Positions 54,989-64,000 of a stretch of 64,000 nt of DNA are shown piece by piece. The stretch is from Gammaproteobacteria bacterium (GTDB lineage: Bacteria > Pseudomonadota > Gammaproteobacteria > Pseudomonadales > Pseudohongiellaceae): NCBI GenBank assembly GCA_002711845.1, contig PASF01000006.1, forward strand, positions 1 to 64,000, read 5' to 3'. Within the stretch, counting starts at the first letter, position 1; the number at the start of each line of letters is the position of its first letter. The notes beneath the pieces are model-generated. The model did not search any database. It was not told the origin of the DNA and saw only the letters and a program-made list of their open reading frames with translations. The translations under genes and the position numbers were made by a program.

Positions 54989-55154
54989 GTGGGGGCTGTC
55001 TTTATACTGCGAGGAAACCGGGCTGGGGGTTTCTCGCCTCCGCTCTCGGACTCCTGTCCTGTGCGGCATTCTTGCATCCTGTTTTCCGTTATCAGTCAAA
55101 CAGTTATCGCCAAGTCAGCACCAGCAGGTTGGGTGCCTTTTTGCGAAGCTGCGC

Positions 55155-55160
55155 ATTATA
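55155..55160 (-). promoter_or_regulatory. -10 box with GC discriminator upstream of tRNA-Leu
   Basis: TATAAT followed by GCGC on the minus strand, about 165 nt before the tRNA, looks like a stable-RNA promoter; the -35 is not clear. The tRNA would need its own promoter because the selenocysteine block cuts it off from tRNA-Gly and tRNA-Cys. Confidence 0.35.
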
Positions 55161-55236
55161 TAGCAATCACTTGCCTAAACCTAGTTACGAACCGGCACGC
55201 GAGACCGCTGCCCCGAATCGCCCGACCGCAACAACA

Positions 55237-55941
55237 TCAATCTAAAGGCACCTCCTCGTCCGGCCCGATCTCGTTCCATTTGCTGACCTTACCAATCGGC
55301 GTGGCGACCAGCGTCAGCCTGATGCTGGGCGCCAGCAATTCATTGAAGCGAGATACATCCTGTTCGGCCGGGTCCAGCCAGGCATCGAGGGTGGCCTGGT
55401 CATCGGGCAGCATCAGCGGCATGGACTTGGGGTGGATGTCACGCACCCAGCGTTTGTTGTCGGGCGGCGGCAGCGTGATGATGCTGGCGGACAGTGCGGT
55501 TTCGCCGGTGTCGTGATTGACCCATTCGCGGTATACGCCGCCGAAAGCGATGGCGTCGGCGGGCCGGCGCAGTTTGTGGTAGGTCTTGCCGTCGCCCAGG
55601 CCTTCGATAAAGGCCGATGCGGGGATCACGCAGCGGGACTCGCGGTAGGGTTTGTAGGCAAGGGCCCTGGGGGTATCAAGCTTGTCGGCGCGGCTGTTGA
55701 AGGACGCGTATTGGTAGTTGGGCTTGAGGGTCGCGGGATCGAGCATCAGCCACCAGGTGGCGTCGCTGACCCGGCGCTCGTCGCCGGTCTGGCGGACAAT
55801 GCTGATGGTTGATCCGGGCGCGGCGTCCGGGGTGAACCGCAAGCCCGGGGTAAAACAAGAGCCCGGGTACAGCGTGATGCCGAGATGCTGCAGAAGCGTC
55901 ATGACTTCGGCACTGTCGATGACGTTGAAGCGGCCGCACAT
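55237..55941 (-). CDS. yedK: SOS response-associated peptidase YedK/HMCES
   Basis: SRAP protein that shields abasic sites in single-stranded DNA by a covalent link through Cys2. The start at 55941 is fixed by the required MCGRF N-terminus. Other active residues are visible: Asn in YASFNSRADKL, Glu in PASAFIEG and His in DIHPKSMPLML. At 234 aa it is normal. It is divergent from the UGSC operon and the gene nearest tRNA-Leu in this block. Confidence 0.95.
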   Translation of the reverse strand: MCGRFNVIDSAEVMTLLQHLGITLYPGSCFTPGLRFTPDAAPGSTISIVRQTGDERRVSDATWWLMLDPATLKPNYQYASFNSRADKLDTPRALAYKPYRESRCVIPASAFIEGLGDGKTYHKLRRPADAIAFGGVYREWVNHDTGETALSASIITLPPPDNKRWVRDIHPKSMPLMLPDDQATLDAWLDPAEQDVSRFNELLAPSIRLTLVATPIGKVSKWNEIGPDEEVPLD

Positions 55942-56065
55942 GGCATTCTCCAAAACTGTTTTGATGAAAATGCTACCACAAAGCCGGGTGCGGCTGTTGC
56001 TGGACATTCGTCAGGAGCGGCGCTACCTTTGGGTGTCAAAGCGCCACCCGGAGAAAGGCCCATCA

Positions 56066-57499
56066 ATGACCACACCCCCGCCCGACGGTCTGATCGTCGT
56101 CGCCAAGGCAGATTGCCCGACCTGTCGCCTCATCGAACCTTTGCTGACTGAGCTGGCAGATGCCGGCCCGCTGCAGGTTTTTGTGCAGGACGACAGCGAC
56201 TATGCGAGCACCCTGCCCGGCACTCACTATGATGACACGCTAGAGCATTCCTGGCGCCTGGATACCGAATTTGTACCGACGCTGATCCGCATGGAACAAG
56301 GCCGGGAAGTCTCCCGCACCTACGGCTGGGACAAGGCTGAGTGGCGCACCATCAGTGGCCTGAGCGGGCTGGGTGAGGCGCTGCCGGTGATGCGCCCGGG
56401 CTGTGGCTCCAAAACCCTGGAGCCTGGCATTGCCGAGCGGCTGGAGCTGGCCTTTGGTGATGTCCGTCTGTCCGCGCGGGAAATTGATGTCAGCGCCGAA
56501 GATGATGCCATTGAAGCGTGTTATGCGCGTGGCTGGAGCGACGGTCTGCCGGTGGTGCCGCCGACGCCGGTGCGGGTGCTGCGCATGCTCAAGGGCACCT
56601 CACGCGACCCGCAAGAAGTGATCGGCCTGATGCCGCCGGATCTGGTGTCCTGCACCGTCGAGAAAGTCGCCATCAATGCGGTGATGGCAGGCTGCAAACC
56701 GGAGTACATGCCGGTGCTGCTGGCGGCGCTGGAGGCGACACTGGAAGACGATTTTGGCCTGCATGGGCTGATCTGCACCACCATGTTCGGCAGCCCCATG
56801 ATCATGGTCAATGGCCCCATCGCCAAGGCCATCGGCATGAATTCCGGCAACAACGCCCTGGGCCAGGGCAATCGCGCCAATGCGACGATTGGCCGGGCTC
56901 TGCAGCTCATTATCCGCAATGTTGGCGGTGGGCGCCCCGGCGAGATTGACCGGGCGACGCTGGGCAATCCGGGCAAGTACAGTTTCTGCTTTGCCGAAGC
57001 TGAAGACAGCGAATGGCTGCCGCTGGCCCAGGAGCGCGGCATTGCTGCCGGCCGTTCAGCCGTGACCGTGTTCCCCGGCGAAGGGGTACAGGGCATCATT
57101 GATCAGAAGTCGCGCGACCCGGACTCGCTGGCCCGCTCGATCGCGGAGTCCCTGCGCGCAGTAGATAATGTCAAGCTGGCCATGGCCGGCGATGCCGTGC
57201 TGGTGGTATCGCCGGAGCACGCGCGCATTTTCATCGAGGCCGGCTGGTCGAAGCAGCAGCTACGCGAGACACTGGAGCAACTGCTGATGGCTCCGGGCGA
57301 GAAACTGATCGCCGGTGCCGGCGGCATGGCAGAGGGCATTCCGGAAAAGTTCAAAGGCAAACAGATACCCAAATTCAGGCCGGGCGGCCTGCTGATTGTC
57401 CGCGCCGGTGGCACAGCCGGCCTGTTTTCTGCGATTATTGCTGGCTGGGCTGCATCTGGCCCGGTTGGCTCTTCACCTGTTACAAGAGAGATCACATAA
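56066..57499 (+). CDS. UGSC-linked protein with N-terminal thioredoxin-like domain
   Basis: A 477-aa protein. The start at 56066 follows GGAGAAAGG and begins a thioredoxin-like domain (VVAKADCPTCRLIEPLL, CxxC near residues 17-20). A conserved domain of unknown function follows (about 140-470), with CYARGWSDGLPVVPPTP, the Cys-containing VMAGCKPEYMPVLLAAL, NSGNNALGQGNRANATIGRA and GGLLIVRAGGTAGLFSA. Twelve bases separate it from the UGSC selenoprotein gene, so they are almost surely co-expressed and may form one redox system. I know no biochemical role for it. Confidence 0.85.
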   Translation: MTTPPPDGLIVVAKADCPTCRLIEPLLTELADAGPLQVFVQDDSDYASTLPGTHYDDTLEHSWRLDTEFVPTLIRMEQGREVSRTYGWDKAEWRTISGLSGLGEALPVMRPGCGSKTLEPGIAERLELAFGDVRLSAREIDVSAEDDAIEACYARGWSDGLPVVPPTPVRVLRMLKGTSRDPQEVIGLMPPDLVSCTVEKVAINAVMAGCKPEYMPVLLAALEATLEDDFGLHGLICTTMFGSPMIMVNGPIAKAIGMNSGNNALGQGNRANATIGRALQLIIRNVGGGRPGEIDRATLGNPGKYSFCFAEAEDSEWLPLAQERGIAAGRSAVTVFPGEGVQGIIDQKSRDPDSLARSIAESLRAVDNVKLAMAGDAVLVVSPEHARIFIEAGWSKQQLRETLEQLLMAPGEKLIAGAGGMAEGIPEKFKGKQIPKFRPGGLLIVRAGGTAGLFSAIIAGWAASGPVGSSPVTREIT

Positions 57500-57510
57500 G
57501 AGGTCACGTT

Positions 57511-58080
57511 ATGAACGAACACATCCTGCTGGATCCGACGGCGGAAAACGCCCCGGCGCAGCGGGCACGACTGCCCAGGCCCGACAGCCTGGATAACAAG
57601 GTCGTCGGCCTGCTGGACATCTCCAAGCCGCGCGGCAATGTCTTTCTGGATCGCATCGAAGAGCAGCTGACGGCGCTTGGACTCACCGTCAAGCGTTACA
57701 GCAAGCCGACCTTCACCCGCCCTGCCCCCACTGAGCTGAAGCAGCAGATGGCAGCAGAAGTGGATGTCCTGGTAGAAGGACTGGCTGACTGAGGATCGTG
57801 TACGTCGTGCTGTATGCATGACATAGCCGATCTGGAGTCACGACAGATTCCGGGAGTTGGAGTTGCCTCTAGCGAGTTTATTGATGCGGCGGCCGCACAA
57901 TCCAGAACGCTGGGTTTCGACCCGGCCATGGTCTTTGTGCCGCACCCGATCCAGAACCGTACTGATGCGGAAATGCGCACCCTGGCCGACGAGGCTTTGG
58001 GGGATATTCTGCGGCTGCTGTGTGCCGGGCCAAACACTGCCGGCCCAAGCACCTCCAAAGAGGGCACTGAAGACACCTGA
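57511..58080 (+). CDS. UGSC-family selenoprotein (Sec94)
   Basis: Reading through the TGA at 57790-57792 joins two frames that otherwise look like a broken gene. The upstream part ends VDVLVEGLAD; then Sec, GSCTSCCMHDIADLE, and an in-frame continuation (VGVASSEFIDAA, MVFVPHPIQNRTD) to the stop at 58080. This is the U-G-S-C motif of a selenoprotein family described from marine metagenomes; 189 aa in all. selA, selB and tRNA-Sec follow directly. Function is unknown; the U/C cluster suggests thiol or metal redox chemistry. Annotation programs are likely to split it. Confidence 0.93.
57790..57845 (+). promoter_or_regulatory. Candidate bacterial SECIS region
   Basis: The TGA at 57790 is followed after 16 nt by a small possible stem GCTGT/ACATAGC (57809-57827). 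A wider pair GTCGTG/CACGAC (57804-57809 with 57839-57844) is an alternative. Bacterial SECIS hairpins lie just after the Sec codon, so position fits; exact fold not proven. Confidence 0.4.
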
Positions 58081-58116
58081 CACGTTAACAACGGCTGTCA
58101 TGCCGGGGGCACTGTC

Positions 58117-59520
58117 ATGAGCAGCCTCTCCGGCACACGCCCACCGGCCGTGGATAAGGCGCTGGCCTGGCCAGGCATAAAGGTATTGATTGCCTGCCAC
58201 GGCCGCGCTCTGGTCCTGGACGCGCTGCGAGACAGCCTGCAGCAGTGGCGCGATGGCCATATTCAGGACAAACAGACGCTGATGGCCGAGGTACAGGCCA
58301 GCATCGAACAACAGCTGGCGCCTGCCTTTAAACCGGTTTTCAACCTGACCGGCACGGTCATTCACACCAATCTGGGACGTGCGCCCCTGCCACCGGAAGC
58401 CATCGACGCCATCGCTGCGGTGGCCAGTGGCGCCAGCAACCTGGAATATGATCTGCACAGCGGCCAGCGCGGCGACCGCGACGCCCATGTCGAAGACTGG
58501 ATTTGCCGGCTGACCGGTGCTGAAGCGGCTACCGTGGTGAACAATAATGCGGCGGCGGTGCTGCTGGTGCTCAATGCCCTGGCGCTGCGCCGGGAAGTGA
58601 TCGTCTCGCGCGGCGAACTGATCGAGATCGGTGGCTCATTCCGGCTGCCGGACATCATGGCCCGGGCTGGCTGCAAACTGCGCGAGGTCGGCAGCACCAA
58701 CCGCACCCATACCCATGATTACGCCGATGCCATCAGCACACGCACCGCGCTGCTGCTCAAGGCGCATACCAGCAATTATGTGATTCAGGGGTTCTCCAGT
58801 AGCCTGAGCGACACCGAGCTGGCCGGCATTGCGCGACAACATGACATCCCGCTGGTGGTCGACCTGGGCAGCGGCTCGCTGATTGATATGCAGCGCCTGG
58901 GTTTGCCGGCCGAGCCGGTGGTGCGGGACGTCCTGGCCCAGGGCGCTGATGTGGTGACGTTCAGCGCTGACAAGCTGCTGGGCGGCCCCCAGGCCGGCAT
59001 CATCGCCGGCCGTGCGGACCTGATCACGCGAATCCGAAAAAGCCCGTTAAAACGGGCACTGCGCTGTGACAAACTGACGCTGGCGGCCCTGGCCGCTGTG
59101 TTGCGGCTGTACGCCGACCCGGACACGCTGGCGCAGCGCATCCCTGCCCTGCGCATGCTGAGCCGACCGCAGGGAGACATCGGGCAGACGGTGACAACGC
59201 TGCTGCCGGCACTGCAAAACTGGGCCGGCGACGGCATCCAGGTGGACACCTGCGAGGTACTCAGCCAGATAGGCTCCGGCTCCCAGCCTTTGGACCGGTT
59301 GCCCAGCGCGGCGCTGCGGCTGCGCAGTCAGCACAGCAACAAACGCGCCCGCAGCCGTCAGTTGCGTGAACTGGCCAGACAGTTGAGACAGTTGCCGGTG
59401 CCGGTGATTGGTCGTATCGCCGATGACAGCCTGCTGCTGGACTGCCGTTGTGTGGAAGCGCCGCAGACCCTGGCAGACCAGTGGCTGAATCATCGCTTTG
59501 CGCTGGAACCGCCGGCGTGA
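58117..59520 (+). CDS. selA: L-seryl-tRNA(Sec) selenium transferase SelA
   Basis: PLP enzyme that converts seryl-tRNA(Sec) to selenocysteinyl-tRNA(Sec) using selenophosphate. It has NLTGTVIHTNLGRAPLP, SNLEYDLHSGQRGDRD, VNNNAAAVLLVLNALA and the PLP lysine in FSADKLLGGPQAGIIAGR (near residue 286). The 467-aa length is normal. Its TGA overlaps the selB GTG start. selD, needed to make selenophosphate, is not in the window. Confidence 0.96.
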   Translation: MSSLSGTRPPAVDKALAWPGIKVLIACHGRALVLDALRDSLQQWRDGHIQDKQTLMAEVQASIEQQLAPAFKPVFNLTGTVIHTNLGRAPLPPEAIDAIAAVASGASNLEYDLHSGQRGDRDAHVEDWICRLTGAEAATVVNNNAAAVLLVLNALALRREVIVSRGELIEIGGSFRLPDIMARAGCKLREVGSTNRTHTHDYADAISTRTALLLKAHTSNYVIQGFSSSLSDTELAGIARQHDIPLVVDLGSGSLIDMQRLGLPAEPVVRDVLAQGADVVTFSADKLLGGPQAGIIAGRADLITRIRKSPLKRALRCDKLTLAALAAVLRLYADPDTLAQRIPALRMLSRPQGDIGQTVTTLLPALQNWAGDGIQVDTCEVLSQIGSGSQPLDRLPSAALRLRSQHSNKRARSRQLRELARQLRQLPVPVIGRIADDSLLLDCRCVEAPQTLADQWLNHRFALEPPA

Positions 59521-61481
59521 TTTTTGCGACCGCCGGGCATGTGGATCATGGCAAAACCACACTGATCAGGGCACTCACCGGCAAAGACACCGATCAGCTT
59601 GCCGACGAACAGCGGCGCGGCCTGACCATTGACCTGGGGTTCGCCTGGTGGCATGACAGCCAGGCCGGCACCCTGGGATTCGTGGATGTGCCAGGTCATG
59701 CGCGGTTCATCCGCACCATGCTGGCCGGGCTCGCCGGCGTGGATGCCGCCCTGCTGGTGGTTGCCGCTGACGCCGGCCCGATGCCGCAAACCCGTGAACA
59801 TCTGGCCTTGCTGGAGCTGCTGGGCATTCACCGTGGCATTGTGGTGATGAGCGCCGTGGATCGCGCCGATACGCAGCAGCAGGCCGACTGCCGGGCCGCC
59901 ATCACGGCGATGATGCAACACAGTCCGCTGGCCGATTCACCGGTGCTGCCGGTGGATGCCATCAGCGGTGTGGGAATGGATGACCTGCGGGCAGCCATCC
60001 GCACGCTGTCGTCGACAACACCGGCGCGCAGTGCACAGGGACAGCCCCGCTTTCTGATCGACCGGCGCTTTACCGTGCCCGGCGTCGGATGTGTGGTAAC
60101 CGGCACCTTGCTCAACGGACAGCTGGATCTGACACAGCAACCACCGTTGCAACTCACGCCCGTGTCCCGGACCGTGCGCGTGCGCGGTATCCAGATTGAT
60201 GGCCGGGCGGTCACCGGCATTGTGAGCGGCCAGCGGGCAGCGCTGAACCTGATCGGCGAACTGGACAGCGAGCATCCGCATCGCGGCGACTGGCTGTTGG
60301 CGGCCGAACCGGGTTCAACCCATCATGCCCAGACCAGCCAGCGGCTGGATGTGCATCTGCGCGTCTTGCCGGAACAACGTATTCATCGTGGCACGTTGCA
60401 GATACTGACCGGCGCCAGTGCCGTCAGCGGCCGCCTGGTGTGGCTGGAAGCGCCTGCGGCCAATGAAGCGCCCGCAGCCGATAAAGAGCCAGCAGCCGAT
60501 AAAGCCCTCTCGGGGCTCGCGCAGTTACTGCTGGACAAACCCGTGCACGGCATTGCCGGTGACGCTGTCATTGTGCGGGAGCCCGCCGCCAATATCACCC
60601 TGGCTGGCGGCCGGATACTGGACCCGCAGGGGCGCCAGCGTGGCCGCAGCAGTCCCCGGGCGCTGGCCCGGCTGACGGCGCTCAAAACCGCGCACACTGC
60701 CTCGCACGCCCTGGCTGCCGACCTGATTCATCTGCAGGAGATCAACCTGCCCGCCTTTGCCCGGCGCTGGCACCTGAGCGCGCAGCAACTGGATAGCCTG
60801 CTGGCAGGACAGGCGGTTGTCCGGCTGGGTAACCAGGCACTCAGCAACTCGCAGTTTGGCAACGCCGCGGCTGTCATCCTGCAACATGTGCAGCTGGCCC
60901 ATGATCAACAGCCGGCACACCTGGGCGTGCATCCGCAGTCGCTGCTCCGCGCGATCGACACCGGTCTCTGCCGGGACACGGAAACGCTGATCATCAACCA
61001 ACTGGTGAATGGTGGTCGCCTGCGCCGTCGTGGCGTGGTGCTTGCCCTGCCCGACCACCAGGCAGTGTTGCCAGCCTCGGACCAGGCGGTGTATCAGCGC
61101 GTGCGCGAGGCGCTGGCCGGTGCCGGGCTGCGACCGCCGATCGTCGGTGAGCTGGGTGCTTTGCTGGGGCTTGAACGAGAGGACATGCTGGCCATCATGC
61201 AAAGGCTGCAGGGCTGGGGTTACGTGCTGGCAGTGGCGCCCAACCGGTTTTACCTGCCCGACCAGCTGGACGACCTGGCGGCGGTGGCACAGGCACTGTG
61301 CGAGCAAAGCCCGGACGGCGGTTTTTCGGCCGCGGATTACCGGGACCGCGCCGACATTGGTCGCAACCTGACGATCAAAGTGCTGGAGTATCTGGATCGG
61401 GCCGGCGTTACTGTGTACCGGGATGAACGGCGCTTTATGCGGCCGGACTGGCGACGCGCGGTCGCGGACAAAATCACGTAG
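59517..61481 (+). CDS. selB: Selenocysteine-specific elongation factor SelB
   Basis: GTPase that brings Sec-tRNA to UGA codons marked by SECIS. GTG at 59517 (GTGA overlap with selA) starts MIFATAGHVDHGKTTLIRALTG, placing the G1 motif correctly; FVDVPGHARF is G3 and VMSAVDRADT a G4 variant. C-terminal winged-helix domains (about 400-650) would bind the SECIS. At 654 aa it is slightly longer than E. coli SelB (614). Part of the excess is a hexapeptide repeat (APAANE/APAADK/EPAADK) near residue 315-330. Confidence 0.95.
   Translation: MIFATAGHVDHGKTTLIRALTGKDTDQLADEQRRGLTIDLGFAWWHDSQAGTLGFVDVPGHARFIRTMLAGLAGVDAALLVVAADAGPMPQTREHLALLELLGIHRGIVVMSAVDRADTQQQADCRAAITAMMQHSPLADSPVLPVDAISGVGMDDLRAAIRTLSSTTPARSAQGQPRFLIDRRFTVPGVGCVVTGTLLNGQLDLTQQPPLQLTPVSRTVRVRGIQIDGRAVTGIVSGQRAALNLIGELDSEHPHRGDWLLAAEPGSTHHAQTSQRLDVHLRVLPEQRIHRGTLQILTGASAVSGRLVWLEAPAANEAPAADKEPAADKALSGLAQLLLDKPVHGIAGDAVIVREPAANITLAGGRILDPQGRQRGRSSPRALARLTALKTAHTASHALAADLIHLQEINLPAFARRWHLSAQQLDSLLAGQAVVRLGNQALSNSQFGNAAAVILQHVQLAHDQQPAHLGVHPQSLLRAIDTGLCRDTETLIINQLVNGGRLRRRGVVLALPDHQAVLPASDQAVYQRVREALAGAGLRPPIVGELGALLGLEREDMLAIMQRLQGWGYVLAVAPNRFYLPDQLDDLAAVAQALCEQSPDGGFSAADYRDRADIGRNLTIKVLEYLDRAGVTVYRDERRFMRPDWRRAVADKIT
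60450..60503 (+). repeat. 18-bp tandem repeat inside selB
   Basis: Three imperfect 18-bp units encode APAANE, APAADK and EPAADK in the domain-linking part of SelB. Confidence 0.8.
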
Positions 61482-61519
61482 AATGCAGCTGATGGAAAAA
61501 TGCAGGTGCTGGGAACAAA

Positions 61520-61614
61520 GGAAGGACATCGTCCCCGGTGGGGCGCCCGGACTTCAAATCCGGTGAGATGCGCAGCGCGCGTCTGGTGGGTTCGACTCCC
61601 ATGTCCTTCCGCCA
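61520..61614 (+). tRNA. selC: tRNA-Sec (anticodon TCA)
   Basis: A 95-nt tRNA with an 8-bp acceptor stem (GGAAGGAC/GTCCTTCC), G discriminator, encoded CCA, long variable arm and anticodon loop with TCA. It lies 38 bp after selB on the same strand, completing the selA-selB-selC block. Confidence 0.95.
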
Positions 61615-61643
61615 CACAGGGTCTTGCTGGGTATCAGGAAAAA

Positions 61644-61717
61644 TGGAGGCTGGGGTCGGAATCGAACCGGCGTACGCGGAGTTGCAGTCCGCTGCATGAC
61701 CACTCTGCCACCCAGCC
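61644..61717 (-). tRNA. tRNA-Cys (anticodon GCA)
   Basis: A 74-nt tRNA, acceptor GGCTGGG, anticodon loop CTGCAAC (GCA), with encoded CCA. It is transcribed after tRNA-Gly, as in the E. coli glyW-cysT-leuZ order. Confidence 0.95.
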
Positions 61718-61833
61718 TTGATTGTTGCAAATTCACCTGTCTGGGCGCAAAATCCGCGGCAGGTGATTTCCGGACTGGCCAACGCGGCCCCCGGGAGGGA
61801 TACTGCGCTGTGCATGGCCTGTGGCCGTAAGTT

Positions 61834-61909
<76 letters not shown>

Positions 61910-62053
61910 TTTACTTCGTATTACTGACTGTCTCTCAACTACCCCGGATCTTAGGGTCTGTCAGCTCTTTTGCAGTGCCGTTTTGCTCACTCCGAAAGAG
62001 GCGCTTATTCTAATGCCATTCGGTGTGAAGTCAAGCGCAAATCAGCAAATTTT

Positions 62054-62611
62054 TTACTGTTTTGCTGTCAGAACCGGCATTGCCTTGATCAGGTATTGCG
62101 CCATGGACCAGAGGCTCAAAGCGGCGGCAAGATATATCAAACCATAGCCGGTTTGCAAGAAAAATTGCGGCCAGGCCGGGGTGTAGGCCAGCAGCACGAT
62201 AATCGCAATCATCTGTACCGTGGTTTTGACCTTGCCGATGTAACCCACCGCCACCGCATCGCGCTGATTGTTGCTGGCCATCCACTCGCGCAGCGCTGAC
62301 ACAAAGACTTCGCGGCCAATAATGATGGCCGTGGGCACCACAAACCAGGGGCTGGGATAGATGGCGGTGAGCAACACCAGGGCCATCACCACCAGCAGCT
62401 TGTCGGCCACCGGATCCAGAAATGCACCAAACGGCGAGGTCTGGTTCAGGCGCCGCGCCAGGTAGCCATCCAGCCAGTCACTGATACTGGCAATGGTGAA
62501 CAGAAACGCGGCAATCAGCTGGCTGTGGGCGATGCCACTGTAGTACACCAGCACAATCACCGGCACCAGCAAAACGCGGCAATACGTCACCATATTGGCG
62601 GCATTCAACAT
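62054..62611 (-). CDS. pgsA: CDP-diacylglycerol-glycerol-3-phosphate 3-phosphatidyltransferase PgsA
   Basis: Inner-membrane enzyme making phosphatidylglycerol phosphate, the committed step to phosphatidylglycerol and cardiolipin. The CDP-alcohol phosphotransferase motif is complete: SDWLDGYLARRLNQTSPFGAFLDPVADK. Four to five membrane helices and 185 aa fit. It lies between uvrC and the tRNA genes, the usual gammaproteobacterial arrangement. Confidence 0.96.
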   Translation of the reverse strand: MLNAANMVTYCRVLLVPVIVLVYYSGIAHSQLIAAFLFTIASISDWLDGYLARRLNQTSPFGAFLDPVADKLLVVMALVLLTAIYPSPWFVVPTAIIIGREVFVSALREWMASNNQRDAVAVGYIGKVKTTVQMIAIIVLLAYTPAWPQFFLQTGYGLIYLAAALSLWSMAQYLIKAMPVLTAKQ

Positions 62612-62699
62612 CCAGATACTCCCTGATTCAACGGCTTTTCCTCTATATCCCAGCGTACTAAAAATTTAACTTAAATGCTTTTGAAAAACGTGATTGAGA

Positions 62700-62860
62700 C
62701 TGCCAGTGCGAGACAAAACCGGGCTCACAAGCGCAGTTTACACAGAGTAAATGAGCATTGTGAGCCTGGTTTTAACGAAGCAATGGCAACGCACGACTGC
62801 ATGGACGCAGGAGGTAGAGCGACGCATGGAGCCAAAGTCGAGATAGCTTTTCACAGCATT
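62700..62860. repeat. Structured intergenic element between uvrC and pgsA
   Basis: Arms AAAACCGGGCTCACAA (62715-62730) and TTGTGAGCCTGGTTTT (62758-62773) pair at 15 of 16 positions, with an inner TTTAC/GTAAA stem. A GAGGTAGAGC-containing tail with two GCATGGA motifs follows. The layout suggests a mobile repeat (MITE-like) or a structured RNA. Confidence 0.5.
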
Positions 62861-64000
62861 TTACTCACTATGCAATGACTCATAAATAACAGCAGCCAGT
62901 TTTTTGCTGATACCCGGCGTGCGCGCCAGATCAGACTCGCTGGCGCGCATGATCTCCTGTTGACCACCAAAGTACTTCAACAGTTCACGGCGCCGTGACG
63001 GGCCCAGCCCCGGGATCTGCTCCAGCGGCGATTGCTGGCGGGTCTTGGCACGGCGCTGGCGGTGGCCAGTGATGGCAAAGCGGTGGGCTTCGTCGCGTAC
63101 CTGCTGCAGCAGGTGCAGTGCCGGTGAATGCCCGGGAATGGCCAGCTCCTGCATGCCGTCGGCCGTGGCAACAAACAGTGTCTCCTGCCCGGCCCGGCGA
63201 CTGATGCCTTTGGCGATACCGATCAGCATGATCTCCGGCAACTGACAGCCCTGCAGCACGTCGATGGCCTGGGCCAGCTGCCCTTTGCCGCCGTCAATCA
63301 ACAGAATATCGGGCACTTTGCTGGCCAGCAGCGACGGATCTTCCTCATCCTGCAGCGCCTGCAGCTGGCTGCTGAGCTTGCTGTAGCGCCGGGTCAGGGC
63401 CTGATCCATGGCGGCGTAGTCGTCACCGCCCTGAATGCCTTCGATGTTGTAGCGGCGATAGTCGGATTTCAGCGGGCCATTGTGATCGAATACCACGCAG
63501 GCGGCCACGGTGCTCTCGCCCATGGTATGGCTGATATCAAAACACTCGATGCGCTGCGGCAGCGCATCCAGCCCCAGCGCGCTTTGCAGCAGCTCAAAGC
63601 GCTTGAACATGCTCTGCCGGTTGTTGATATGGCTCTGGATCGCCTGCTGTGCGTTGGCCAGGGCCAGATCACGCCAGCGCGCGCGGTGACCGCGGACATT
63701 GCCGCGCAGTGACACGGCCTTGCCGGCCGCGGCGCTGAGGGCGTCCTGCAGTCCTTTCTGCTCCCTGATCAACGGAAACACCACGATCTCGGCCGGGATT
63801 GCCGCGGCTGCCAGCTCGCCGCCGTCGCGCAGGTAGTATTGGGCGATAAACGCCGCCAGCAGGTCGGCGGCGGTTTCCGCCAGCTTGTCCTTGGGGAAAA
63901 AGTTGCGGCTGCCGATGATGCGCCCGCCACGAATGACAATGACATGGACGCAGGTGTAGGCGCCTTCCAGTACCGCGGCCAGCACGTCGGCATCACTGCC
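62861..64000 (-). CDS. uvrC: UvrABC excinuclease subunit C (N-terminal part cut by window edge)
   Basis: Makes the two incisions in nucleotide-excision repair. The visible 380 residues cover the C-terminal RNase H-like nuclease (CFDISHTMGESTVAACVVFDHNGP, LLIDGGKGQL, VRDEAHRFAITGHR) and the closing helix-hairpin-helix pair (IPGLGPSRRRELLKYFGG). The reading frame stays open to base 64000, so the GIY-YIG N-terminus lies outside. It precedes pgsA on the same strand. Confidence 0.95.
   Translation of the reverse strand, partial: GSDADVLAAVLEGAYTCVHVIVIRGGRIIGSRNFFPKDKLAETAADLLAAFIAQYYLRDGGELAAAAIPAEIVVFPLIREQKGLQDALSAAAGKAVSLRGNVRGHRARWRDLALANAQQAIQSHINNRQSMFKRFELLQSALGLDALPQRIECFDISHTMGESTVAACVVFDHNGPLKSDYRRYNIEGIQGGDDYAAMDQALTRRYSKLSSQLQALQDEEDPSLLASKVPDILLIDGGKGQLAQAIDVLQGCQLPEIMLIGIAKGISRRAGQETLFVATADGMQELAIPGHSPALHLLQQVRDEAHRFAITGHRQRRAKTRQQSPLEQIPGLGPSRRRELLKYFGGQQEIMRASESDLARTPGISKKLAAVIYESLHSE

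Follow-up and report, generated by a model that had tools for sequence, protein, structure and literature searches.

The stretch of DNA studied here (the window, 64,000 nucleotides) comprises positions 1 to 64,000 of contig PASF01000006.1 from the Gammaproteobacteria bacterium assembly GCA_002711845.1 (Pseudohongiellaceae) and contains a gene for a selenoprotein of the UGSC family that is preceded by a gene for a partner protein consisting of a thioredoxin-like domain and a domain here called UPc, a pair that we consider a candidate two-subunit reductase. UGSC starts 11 bases past the stop codon of the upstream open reading frame (ORF), with a GAGG in between, and is separated by 36 bases from selA, which in turn is followed by selB and tRNA-Sec (Table 1). 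The original prediction, made from the sequence letters, had placed the latter three genes directly after UGSC, and matches to the respective TIGR00474, TIGR00475 and RF01852 models agree with this, while the ORF directly before UGSC had been passed over.

Table 1. Features of the UPc-UGSC locus (coordinates refer to the window).
Feature	Position	Strand	Remarks
Partner protein with thioredoxin-like and UPc domains	56066..57499	+	ATG start at 56066 inferred; the mechanically called ORF reaches back to 55718
Thioredoxin-like domain with CPTC (Cys17, Cys20 of partner)	56087..56383	+	Limits approximate; profile vs. PDB thioredoxins
UPc domain, 321 amino acids by profile	56486..57448	+	No Pfam or NCBIfam family found
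UGSC selenoprotein gene	57511..58080	+	189 codons including one read-through TGA; terminal stop TGA; orthologues carry the same TGA
In-frame TGA, decoded as selenocysteine (U94 in U-G-S-C-T-S-C)	57790..57792	+	Sec/Cys invariant at this column in alignments of 26 and 73 sequences
Putative bacterial SECIS hairpin GUCGUGC-UGUAU-GCAUGAC	57804..57822	+	Comparative stem analysis; single-sequence fold z -0.96
selA, L-seryl-tRNA(Sec) selenium transferase	58117..59520	+	TIGR00474, 570.3 bits
selB, Sec-specific elongation factor	59517..61481	+	TIGR00475, 350.5 bits; GTG start at 59517 inferred from the DNA and the first profile residue, overlaps selA stop
tRNA-Sec, anticodon TCA	61520..61614	+	RF01852, 83.2 bits

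UGSC Is Encoded Across an In-Frame TGA

Two ORFs in the same frame (57511-57792, 93 amino acids, and 57814-58080, 88 amino acids) are separated at the TGA. The original prediction that they join across this codon into a UGSC motif was confirmed with regard to coordinates and frame. The joined protein of 189 amino acids, with U94 lying within ...GLADUGSCTSCCMHD..., matches PF24696 over residues 6-171 (E 5.9e-40, 137.6 bits vs. a cut-off of 25) and NF041046 with 142.7 bits (cut-off 125). It carries the [UC]-G-S-C motif together with aligned selenocysteine (Sec) and cysteine homologues by which membership in the family was judged, and a comparison proposed earlier indeed yielded Sec as well as Cys (CGSC) homologues that align across the TGA. 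Truncation by standard gene calling, as had been expected, is seen in Paracoccus ferrooxidans (CP038202), where the UGSC gene is annotated as two adjacent coding sequences for a "hypothetical protein" split at the TGA; selA, selB and trxB are located less than 10 kb away from it.

The UGSC family is present in 83 of 194 relatives (82 of them above the cut-off), which speaks against chance, and nearly every one of the matching rows contains exactly one TGA. Exceptions are the copy in genome G169, which has no stop codon, that in genome G186, a sub-threshold match likewise without a stop, and three short fragments, two lacking a stop and one containing TAG. Among seven orthologues from the same genus, most changes fall on codon position 3, upstream as well as downstream of the TGA. 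The region is almost certainly a recoded UGSC selenoprotein gene, into whose product Sec would be inserted in vivo.

All components expected for bacterial Sec synthesis and insertion, i.e., selA, selB, tRNA-Sec and selD, are present in the genome. The concern that selD might be absent was removed by its detection on another contig (C7) with 440.6 bits, a score above the cut-off. In the 15 genomes of the window's genus, UGSC and selA are both found in the same ten and both missing from the other five. Across the 194 relatives, 76 contain UGSC and selA, seven UGSC only (including G169 and G186), eight selA only and 103 neither, numbers that describe a pattern and not a clean P value as the relatives share ancestry and some genomes are incomplete. 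A search limited to formate dehydrogenase (TIGR01553), Rdx/SelW and CMD/AhpD did not reveal other selenoproteins in the genome.

Two Paracoccus plasmid loci (L142, CP038202.1 1319406-1339969, and L079, NZ_CP035287.1) combine UGSC including the TGA with UPc (identified by profile in L079), selA, selB and trxB, and constitute a plasmid-borne selenocysteine cassette. In a related genus (g4; loci L061, L064, L066-L073) genomes often have two copies of UGSC, of which the second type is about 30% identical to the window copy and has its own UPc nearby, which is devoid of a thioredoxin domain.

A Putative SECIS Hairpin Follows the UGA

The putative selenocysteine insertion sequence (SECIS) has a 7-bp stem and a five-base loop, UGUAU, with G as the second base. 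The loop is situated 18 nt past the UGA, and both the loop G and this distance agree with the rule for bacterial SECIS elements. In 47 distinct Sec sequences 91.8% of the stem positions are paired and three pairs exhibit two-sided changes (7 cells); none of 500 shuffles matched the pairing or the covariation score, while one of the five measures, further pair types, was ordinary (49/500). Sliding the register by +2 led to a covariation of 0.101 vs. 0.112, yet to a pairing of 48.6%. In the control, i.e., the same stem in 53 of 63 Cys sequences, pairing amounted to 69.8% and was not above that in shuffles (103/500). Mononucleotide shuffles gave a mean z of -2.83 for 45 distinct Sec sequences vs. 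-0.16 for 62 Cys sequences; given this type of shuffle and the relatedness of the sequences, the P value of the contrast cannot be read at face value. The distant Sec copies L078 and L105 retain the stem via compensatory letters, and in L082 it is shifted by one base.

Several points speak against the hairpin. The Sec sequences analyzed stem mostly from one bacterial family, the stem is largely broken in the Sec rows L052 and L053, and the folding energy in the window itself is unremarkable when compared to dinucleotide shuffles (z -0.96, 37/200 as good). By the same measure, z values ranged from -0.41 to -2.42 for six other Sec sequences and from 0.26 to -0.73 for four Cys sequences. It is the comparison of Sec sequences with the Cys control that points to a SECIS element directly after the UGA.

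An Actinophytocola metagenome-assembled genome (L082:1569-1751, minus strand) harbors a second UGSC-like piece with a TGA, followed at nearly the same place by a hairpin of different sequence.

UGSC Is Paired With UPc and Linked to Thioredoxin

Among 57 loci of named genomes, which were found by UGSC alone using a search pattern that spelled Cys, so that just one of the 61 UGSC copies of at least 100 amino acids contains a TGA, UPc is encoded within 1.5 kb and on the same strand for 60. Both gene orders occur, with UPc downstream of UGSC in 37 and upstream in 23 of the paired copies. In relatives (L035-L074, 40 loci, 39 with a UGSC copy) UPc accompanies 36 of 39 copies, 35 of them on the same strand, and it is present in 25 of 30 loci with short flanks (L005-L034), some genes of which overlap those of the other sets. 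In L054 and L141, UGSC and UPc are fused in one frame.

No credible Pfam or NCBIfam family was recovered for the 26 UPc members scanned. The UPc model has a predicted local distance difference test (pLDDT) score of 88.9. Comparison of UPc with solved structures yielded no convincing relative, with a best sequence E of 0.48, a best Foldseek E of 6.6e-3 with a TM score of 0.28 and a weak fold match by VIA (Z 6.5 over 95 residues). According to the available passages of PMC2398784, UGSC also occurs fused to a domain named Unknown_1; this domain may be UPc.

In the window and in relatives with the fused domain (13 aligned and more among further relatives), the CPTC motif of the thioredoxin-like domain is invariant. 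A profile of the 13 domains retrieved thioredoxins from the Protein Data Bank (PDB; best E 4.1e-6), and PF13098 matches ten of the 13 at E up to 1 (best 9.9e-6), the window copy alone staying below Pfam cut-offs. As judged by sequence, the partner thus contains a CxxC thioredoxin domain. In Arthrobacter the annotated gene order is trxB-trxA-UPc-UGSC, and trxB is annotated near UPc-UGSC in records of Roseovarius, Variovorax and Paracoccus.

UGSC Is Related to GrdB and PrdB

When 26 UGSC members were compared with NCBIfam at E up to 1, the family following UGSC itself was GrdB, matched by 11 members (best E 3.1e-4); further matches were to GrdF (6), the superfamily model TIGR01918 (3), PrdB (3) and GrdH (2). 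All matches of the GrdB/PrdB type are weak, and unrelated families were hit by at most two of the 26. An hhalign comparison of 67 UGSC sequences with 21 reference sequences (four GrdB-type, six PrdB, 11 PrdB-like) gave a probability of 94.1%, an E of 1.3e-7 (for one profile) and a score of 53.8, and superposed the Sec/Cys columns, UGSC on UGTC. Thirty column shuffles reached at most 1.6% and a score of 19.7, and the reversed control scored 16.7. With the four GrdB-type sequences alone the probability was 90.3%, and an initial alignment to ten PrdB-like proteins encoded by members of the same class and phylum as the window had yielded 60%. The GrdB-type genes were two annotated as grdF in Peptoclostridium and two unannotated ones in Acetoanaerobium, the PrdB genes originated from Peptoclostridium, Acetoanaerobium, Ligilactobacillus, Enterococcus, Terrisporobacter and Paraclostridium (unannotated in Acetoanaerobium and Paraclostridium). 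The resemblance is visible in the motifs themselves, i.e., DAVILTSTUGTCTRC...GIP...IPHPLG in the GrdB type of Acetoanaerobium, DAVLLTAGUGTCHR...GIP in PrdB and DVLVEGLADUGSCTSC...QIP...VPHPIQ in the window's UGSC. Sequence comparison therefore makes it very probable that UGSC and the Sec subunits of the reductases for glycine and D-proline are remotely homologous.

GrdB, GrdF and GrdH (TIGR01917/01918, PF07355) share with UGSC the pattern UG[ST]CTxC with aligned Sec/Cys, the elements [GQ]IP and PHP[LI] and the supply by thioredoxin. They differ in length, as UGSC with its 189 amino acids does not have the long N-terminal part of these proteins (436-440 amino acids), and in the partner, which is of the GrdE type instead of UPc. 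In Acetoanaerobium the order trxB, trxA, GrdE-type gene, GrdB-type gene parallels trxB-trxA-UPc-UGSC. PrdB (TIGR04483) has the same domain and Sec position as UGSC, which is clear in the joint profile, whereas its partner PrdA is a pyruvoyl proprotein to which UPc is not detectably homologous; electrons have been proposed to reach PrdB via PrdC (PMC3091704, passages available). The farB/farE system of Synergistota resembles the present one in consisting of a GrdB-type Sec subunit and one partner and in being proposed to work without a Schiff base, but there the partner is a GrdE homologue, which UPc is not (PMC10838667, accessible passages). From the UGSC family as such (NF041046/PF24696, the "UGSC-containing protein" in the passages available of PMC2398784) the window protein differs in nothing; the additions made here concern its surroundings, namely the near-constant partner UPc, the thioredoxin domain fused to it and the accompanying sel operon.

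Loci L145, L148, L152 and L154, from genomes of the class and phylum to which the window belongs, encode PrdB-like proteins, two of which have an in-frame TGA (UPAC, UPVC). The PrdB-like gene of L152 and that of L154 are each followed by a frame recognized by eye as CoA-transferase-like.

The Predicted Fold of UGSC Is Flavodoxin-Like

The UGSC model (pLDDT 93.8) consists of five strands in an alternating alpha/beta arrangement with U94 placed just before helix 95-110. The best matches in fold searches were to flavodoxins, to PurE and to receiver domains; a thioredoxin chain was not among the 50 matches listed in either fold search, which by itself proves nothing, nor was a GrdB or PrdB chain among the matches listed. 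Sequence searches did not retrieve a relative among solved structures (best profile E 0.28). The model speaks against the thioredoxin fold guessed for UGSC in PMC2398784, as far as the passages available of that paper go, and suggests a flavodoxin-like fold instead.

By VIA, the natural chain that ranked first was 8s7v_H (Z 10.8, 135 residues, root mean square deviation 3.8), a component of the methyl-coenzyme M reductase activation complex; widespread alpha/beta arrangements reach scores close to this.

Proposed Function and Alternative Explanations

With a probability of about 0.6, UPc and UGSC are the two subunits of a thioredoxin-driven, GrdB-like reductase, encoded in one locus with the machinery for Sec synthesis. 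This proposal builds on computed features, namely the readable gene and its conserved TGA, the hairpin behind it, the kinship to GrdB/PrdB, the near-constant presence of UPc next to UGSC, and thioredoxin, either as a fused domain or in the form of trx genes nearby; it would require UPc and UGSC to form a complex. UGSC, as a short flavodoxin-like relative of GrdB/PrdB, would be the catalytic subunit and UPc would bind and present a small substrate. By analogy, the selenolate of U94 would attack this substrate, Cys97 would resolve the selenium adduct to an Se-S bond, and the partner would reduce that bond through its CPTC thioredoxin domain, which NADPH-thioredoxin reductase would then recharge. 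The overall role would probably be a catabolic one acting on a small imported organic compound. A broader version, to which we give slightly less than even odds, is that UGSC plus UPc represent an unrecognized third class of GrdB/PrdB-type reductases, fed by thioredoxin, occurring in Sec and Cys forms in several bacterial phyla and haloarchaea, with a protein of new fold replacing the pyruvoyl partner and a new class of substrate; in the window's genus, the entire Sec machinery may be retained just for this one enzyme.

A number of observations weigh against the proposed reductase. UPc is missing next to UGSC in one named genome, a Methanobrevibacter bin (L118), and within 1.5 kb of three of the 39 copies in relatives (L062, L065, L066). 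Against PrdB alone the hhalign probability was 41%. UGSC stays below the cut-offs for PF07355 and the GrdB/PrdB families, with no match to PF07355 and 15.9 vs. 602.2 bits for TIGR01917, and the GrdF cut-off is likewise far from being reached by the window copy. UPc gave probabilities of 0.04-0.28% against GrdG (GrdE-type), PrdA, PrdD and GrdB, with PrdA vs. GrdG as a control at 97%; a pyruvoyl proprotein of the GrdE/PrdA type was hence not found as UGSC partner, and as UPc shows no homology to these partners, classical pyruvoyl chemistry is not implied. By tblastn, trxB-like ORFs were detected in only 14 and trxA-like ORFs in three of 110 loci, some of which are duplicates. The neighbors of the pair are too varied to name a single substrate, and those in the window are sel genes and not catabolic ones. 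Finally, genome G028 (99% complete) contains UGSC with the TGA and has no selA match at E 1e-60.

Four other explanations were weighed. In one of them the TGA would be a genuine stop codon or due to faulty sequencing, and the two pieces a pseudogene or two small genes, which accords with the two ORFs returned by a mechanical search and the weak hairpin in the single sequence. Conservation of this TGA in nearly all related copies, the predominance of third-position changes also downstream of it, the hairpin, the sel operon and the Cys homologues aligned across the site speak against this reading and make it scarcely credible. It is also unlikely, if far less so, that UGSC is a general thiol-disulfide or peroxide-detoxifying protein of thioredoxin fold with UPc as an accessory. 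A Sec/Cys-x-x-Cys motif and the link to thioredoxin would suit such a role, peroxidase activity has been reported for GrdB (judging by the title of a work cited in PMC3091704), and PMC13188914, in the portion available, places UGSC in a list that ends with proteins of Trx-like fold, in ambiguous wording; however, the structural matches of the UGSC model are those given above, its kin by sequence are GrdB/PrdB, and annotated neighbors are mostly not oxidative-stress genes.

Similarly low odds apply to the possibility that UPc is the actual enzyme and UGSC merely relays electrons from thioredoxin. UPc is the larger protein and is well conserved, with 12 columns invariant across 26 diverse members; UGSC is a small protein whose motif marks it as redox-active, and the window's UPc itself bears a thioredoxin domain. 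On the other hand, the two near-invariant Cys residues of UPc are both missing in L057, and UGSC aligns with the proline reductase subunit proposed as nucleophile and its glycine reductase counterpart. Clearly more improbable still is a system that reductively detoxifies or assimilates non-amine compounds by acting on carbon-halogen or carbon-sulfur bonds, in place of an amino-acid-like catabolism. The precedent is farB/farE, a GrdB/GrdE-like pair for which the available text of PMC10838667 proposes cleavage of the C-F bond in fluoroacetate; in addition, UPc shows no detectable relationship to pyruvoyl proproteins. tblastn moreover detected phosphosulfolactate-synthase-like ORFs in six and phosphoenolpyruvate (PEP)-mutase-like ORFs in five of the 110 loci, but no halide or sulfonate gene was seen that is common to most loci, and the chemistry is a guess.

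Relation to Published Work

Members of the UGSC family appear in PMC2398784, PMC9312934, PMC7539508, PMC13188914, PMC9402790, PMC5029168 and PMC5330540. The passages available from these papers report 255 Sec forms of UGSC in an ocean survey (PMC2398784) and a share of 8.2% of selenoprotein genes (PMC9402790), placing UGSC among the commonest selenoproteins in ocean surveys without assigning a function to it. The statement in the original prediction that the function of the family is unknown is in line with these passages, and literature searches, which covered passages of the papers available, listed none that assigns a function to UGSC, pairs it with UPc or relates it to GrdB. While the UGSC gene is a member of a known family, the functional proposal thus appears to be new; new are the near-constant UPc partner, the relation to GrdB/PrdB with a flavodoxin-like fold and the genus-wide co-occurrence of selA and UGSC.

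Chemistry of the glycine/proline reductase type has mostly been studied in amino-acid fermenters. If the proposed reductase is real, this chemistry would extend beyond them and the fold guessed in print would be corrected. The UPc partner, the likely electron source and the reductase kinship make the function of UGSC concretely testable.

Gene Neighborhood and Further Observations

In a Pfam census of 29 diverse loci with 162 neighboring ORFs, 133 were scanned, 29 having been left out by hand (24 shorter than 120 amino acids and five long ones). Recurrent families among those listed were class III CoA-transferases (9/133), short-chain dehydrogenases/reductases (SDR; 5), LysR (4) and old yellow enzymes (3). 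With labeled baits, tblastn revealed CaiB-like ORFs in 44 of the 110 loci, SDR in 28, receptors of tripartite tricarboxylate transporters (TTT) in 18 and LysR in 16, counts that come without a background control. The neighbors of Cys-form pairs, namely CoA-transferases, LysR, SDR and TTT or tripartite ATP-independent periplasmic (TRAP) transporters, suggest catabolism of small imported acids.

The UGSC protein of the Methanobrevibacter bin (L118:8893-9411) is a Cys form. Its gene is adjacent to ORFs that we take, from their sequence, to be tRNA-synthetase-like and polyferredoxin-like.

None of the six Rfam matches listed for positions 55000-64000 falls at the TGA. A search for promoter-like sites returned none, and terminator-like sites numbered seven vs. 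3.6 in shuffles, two of them within UGSC. The flanks of the locus in the window are ordinary and encode a SRAP family protein (55237-56007), a CDP-alcohol phosphatidyltransferase (62054-62611) and UvrC (62861-63985), all on the minus strand.
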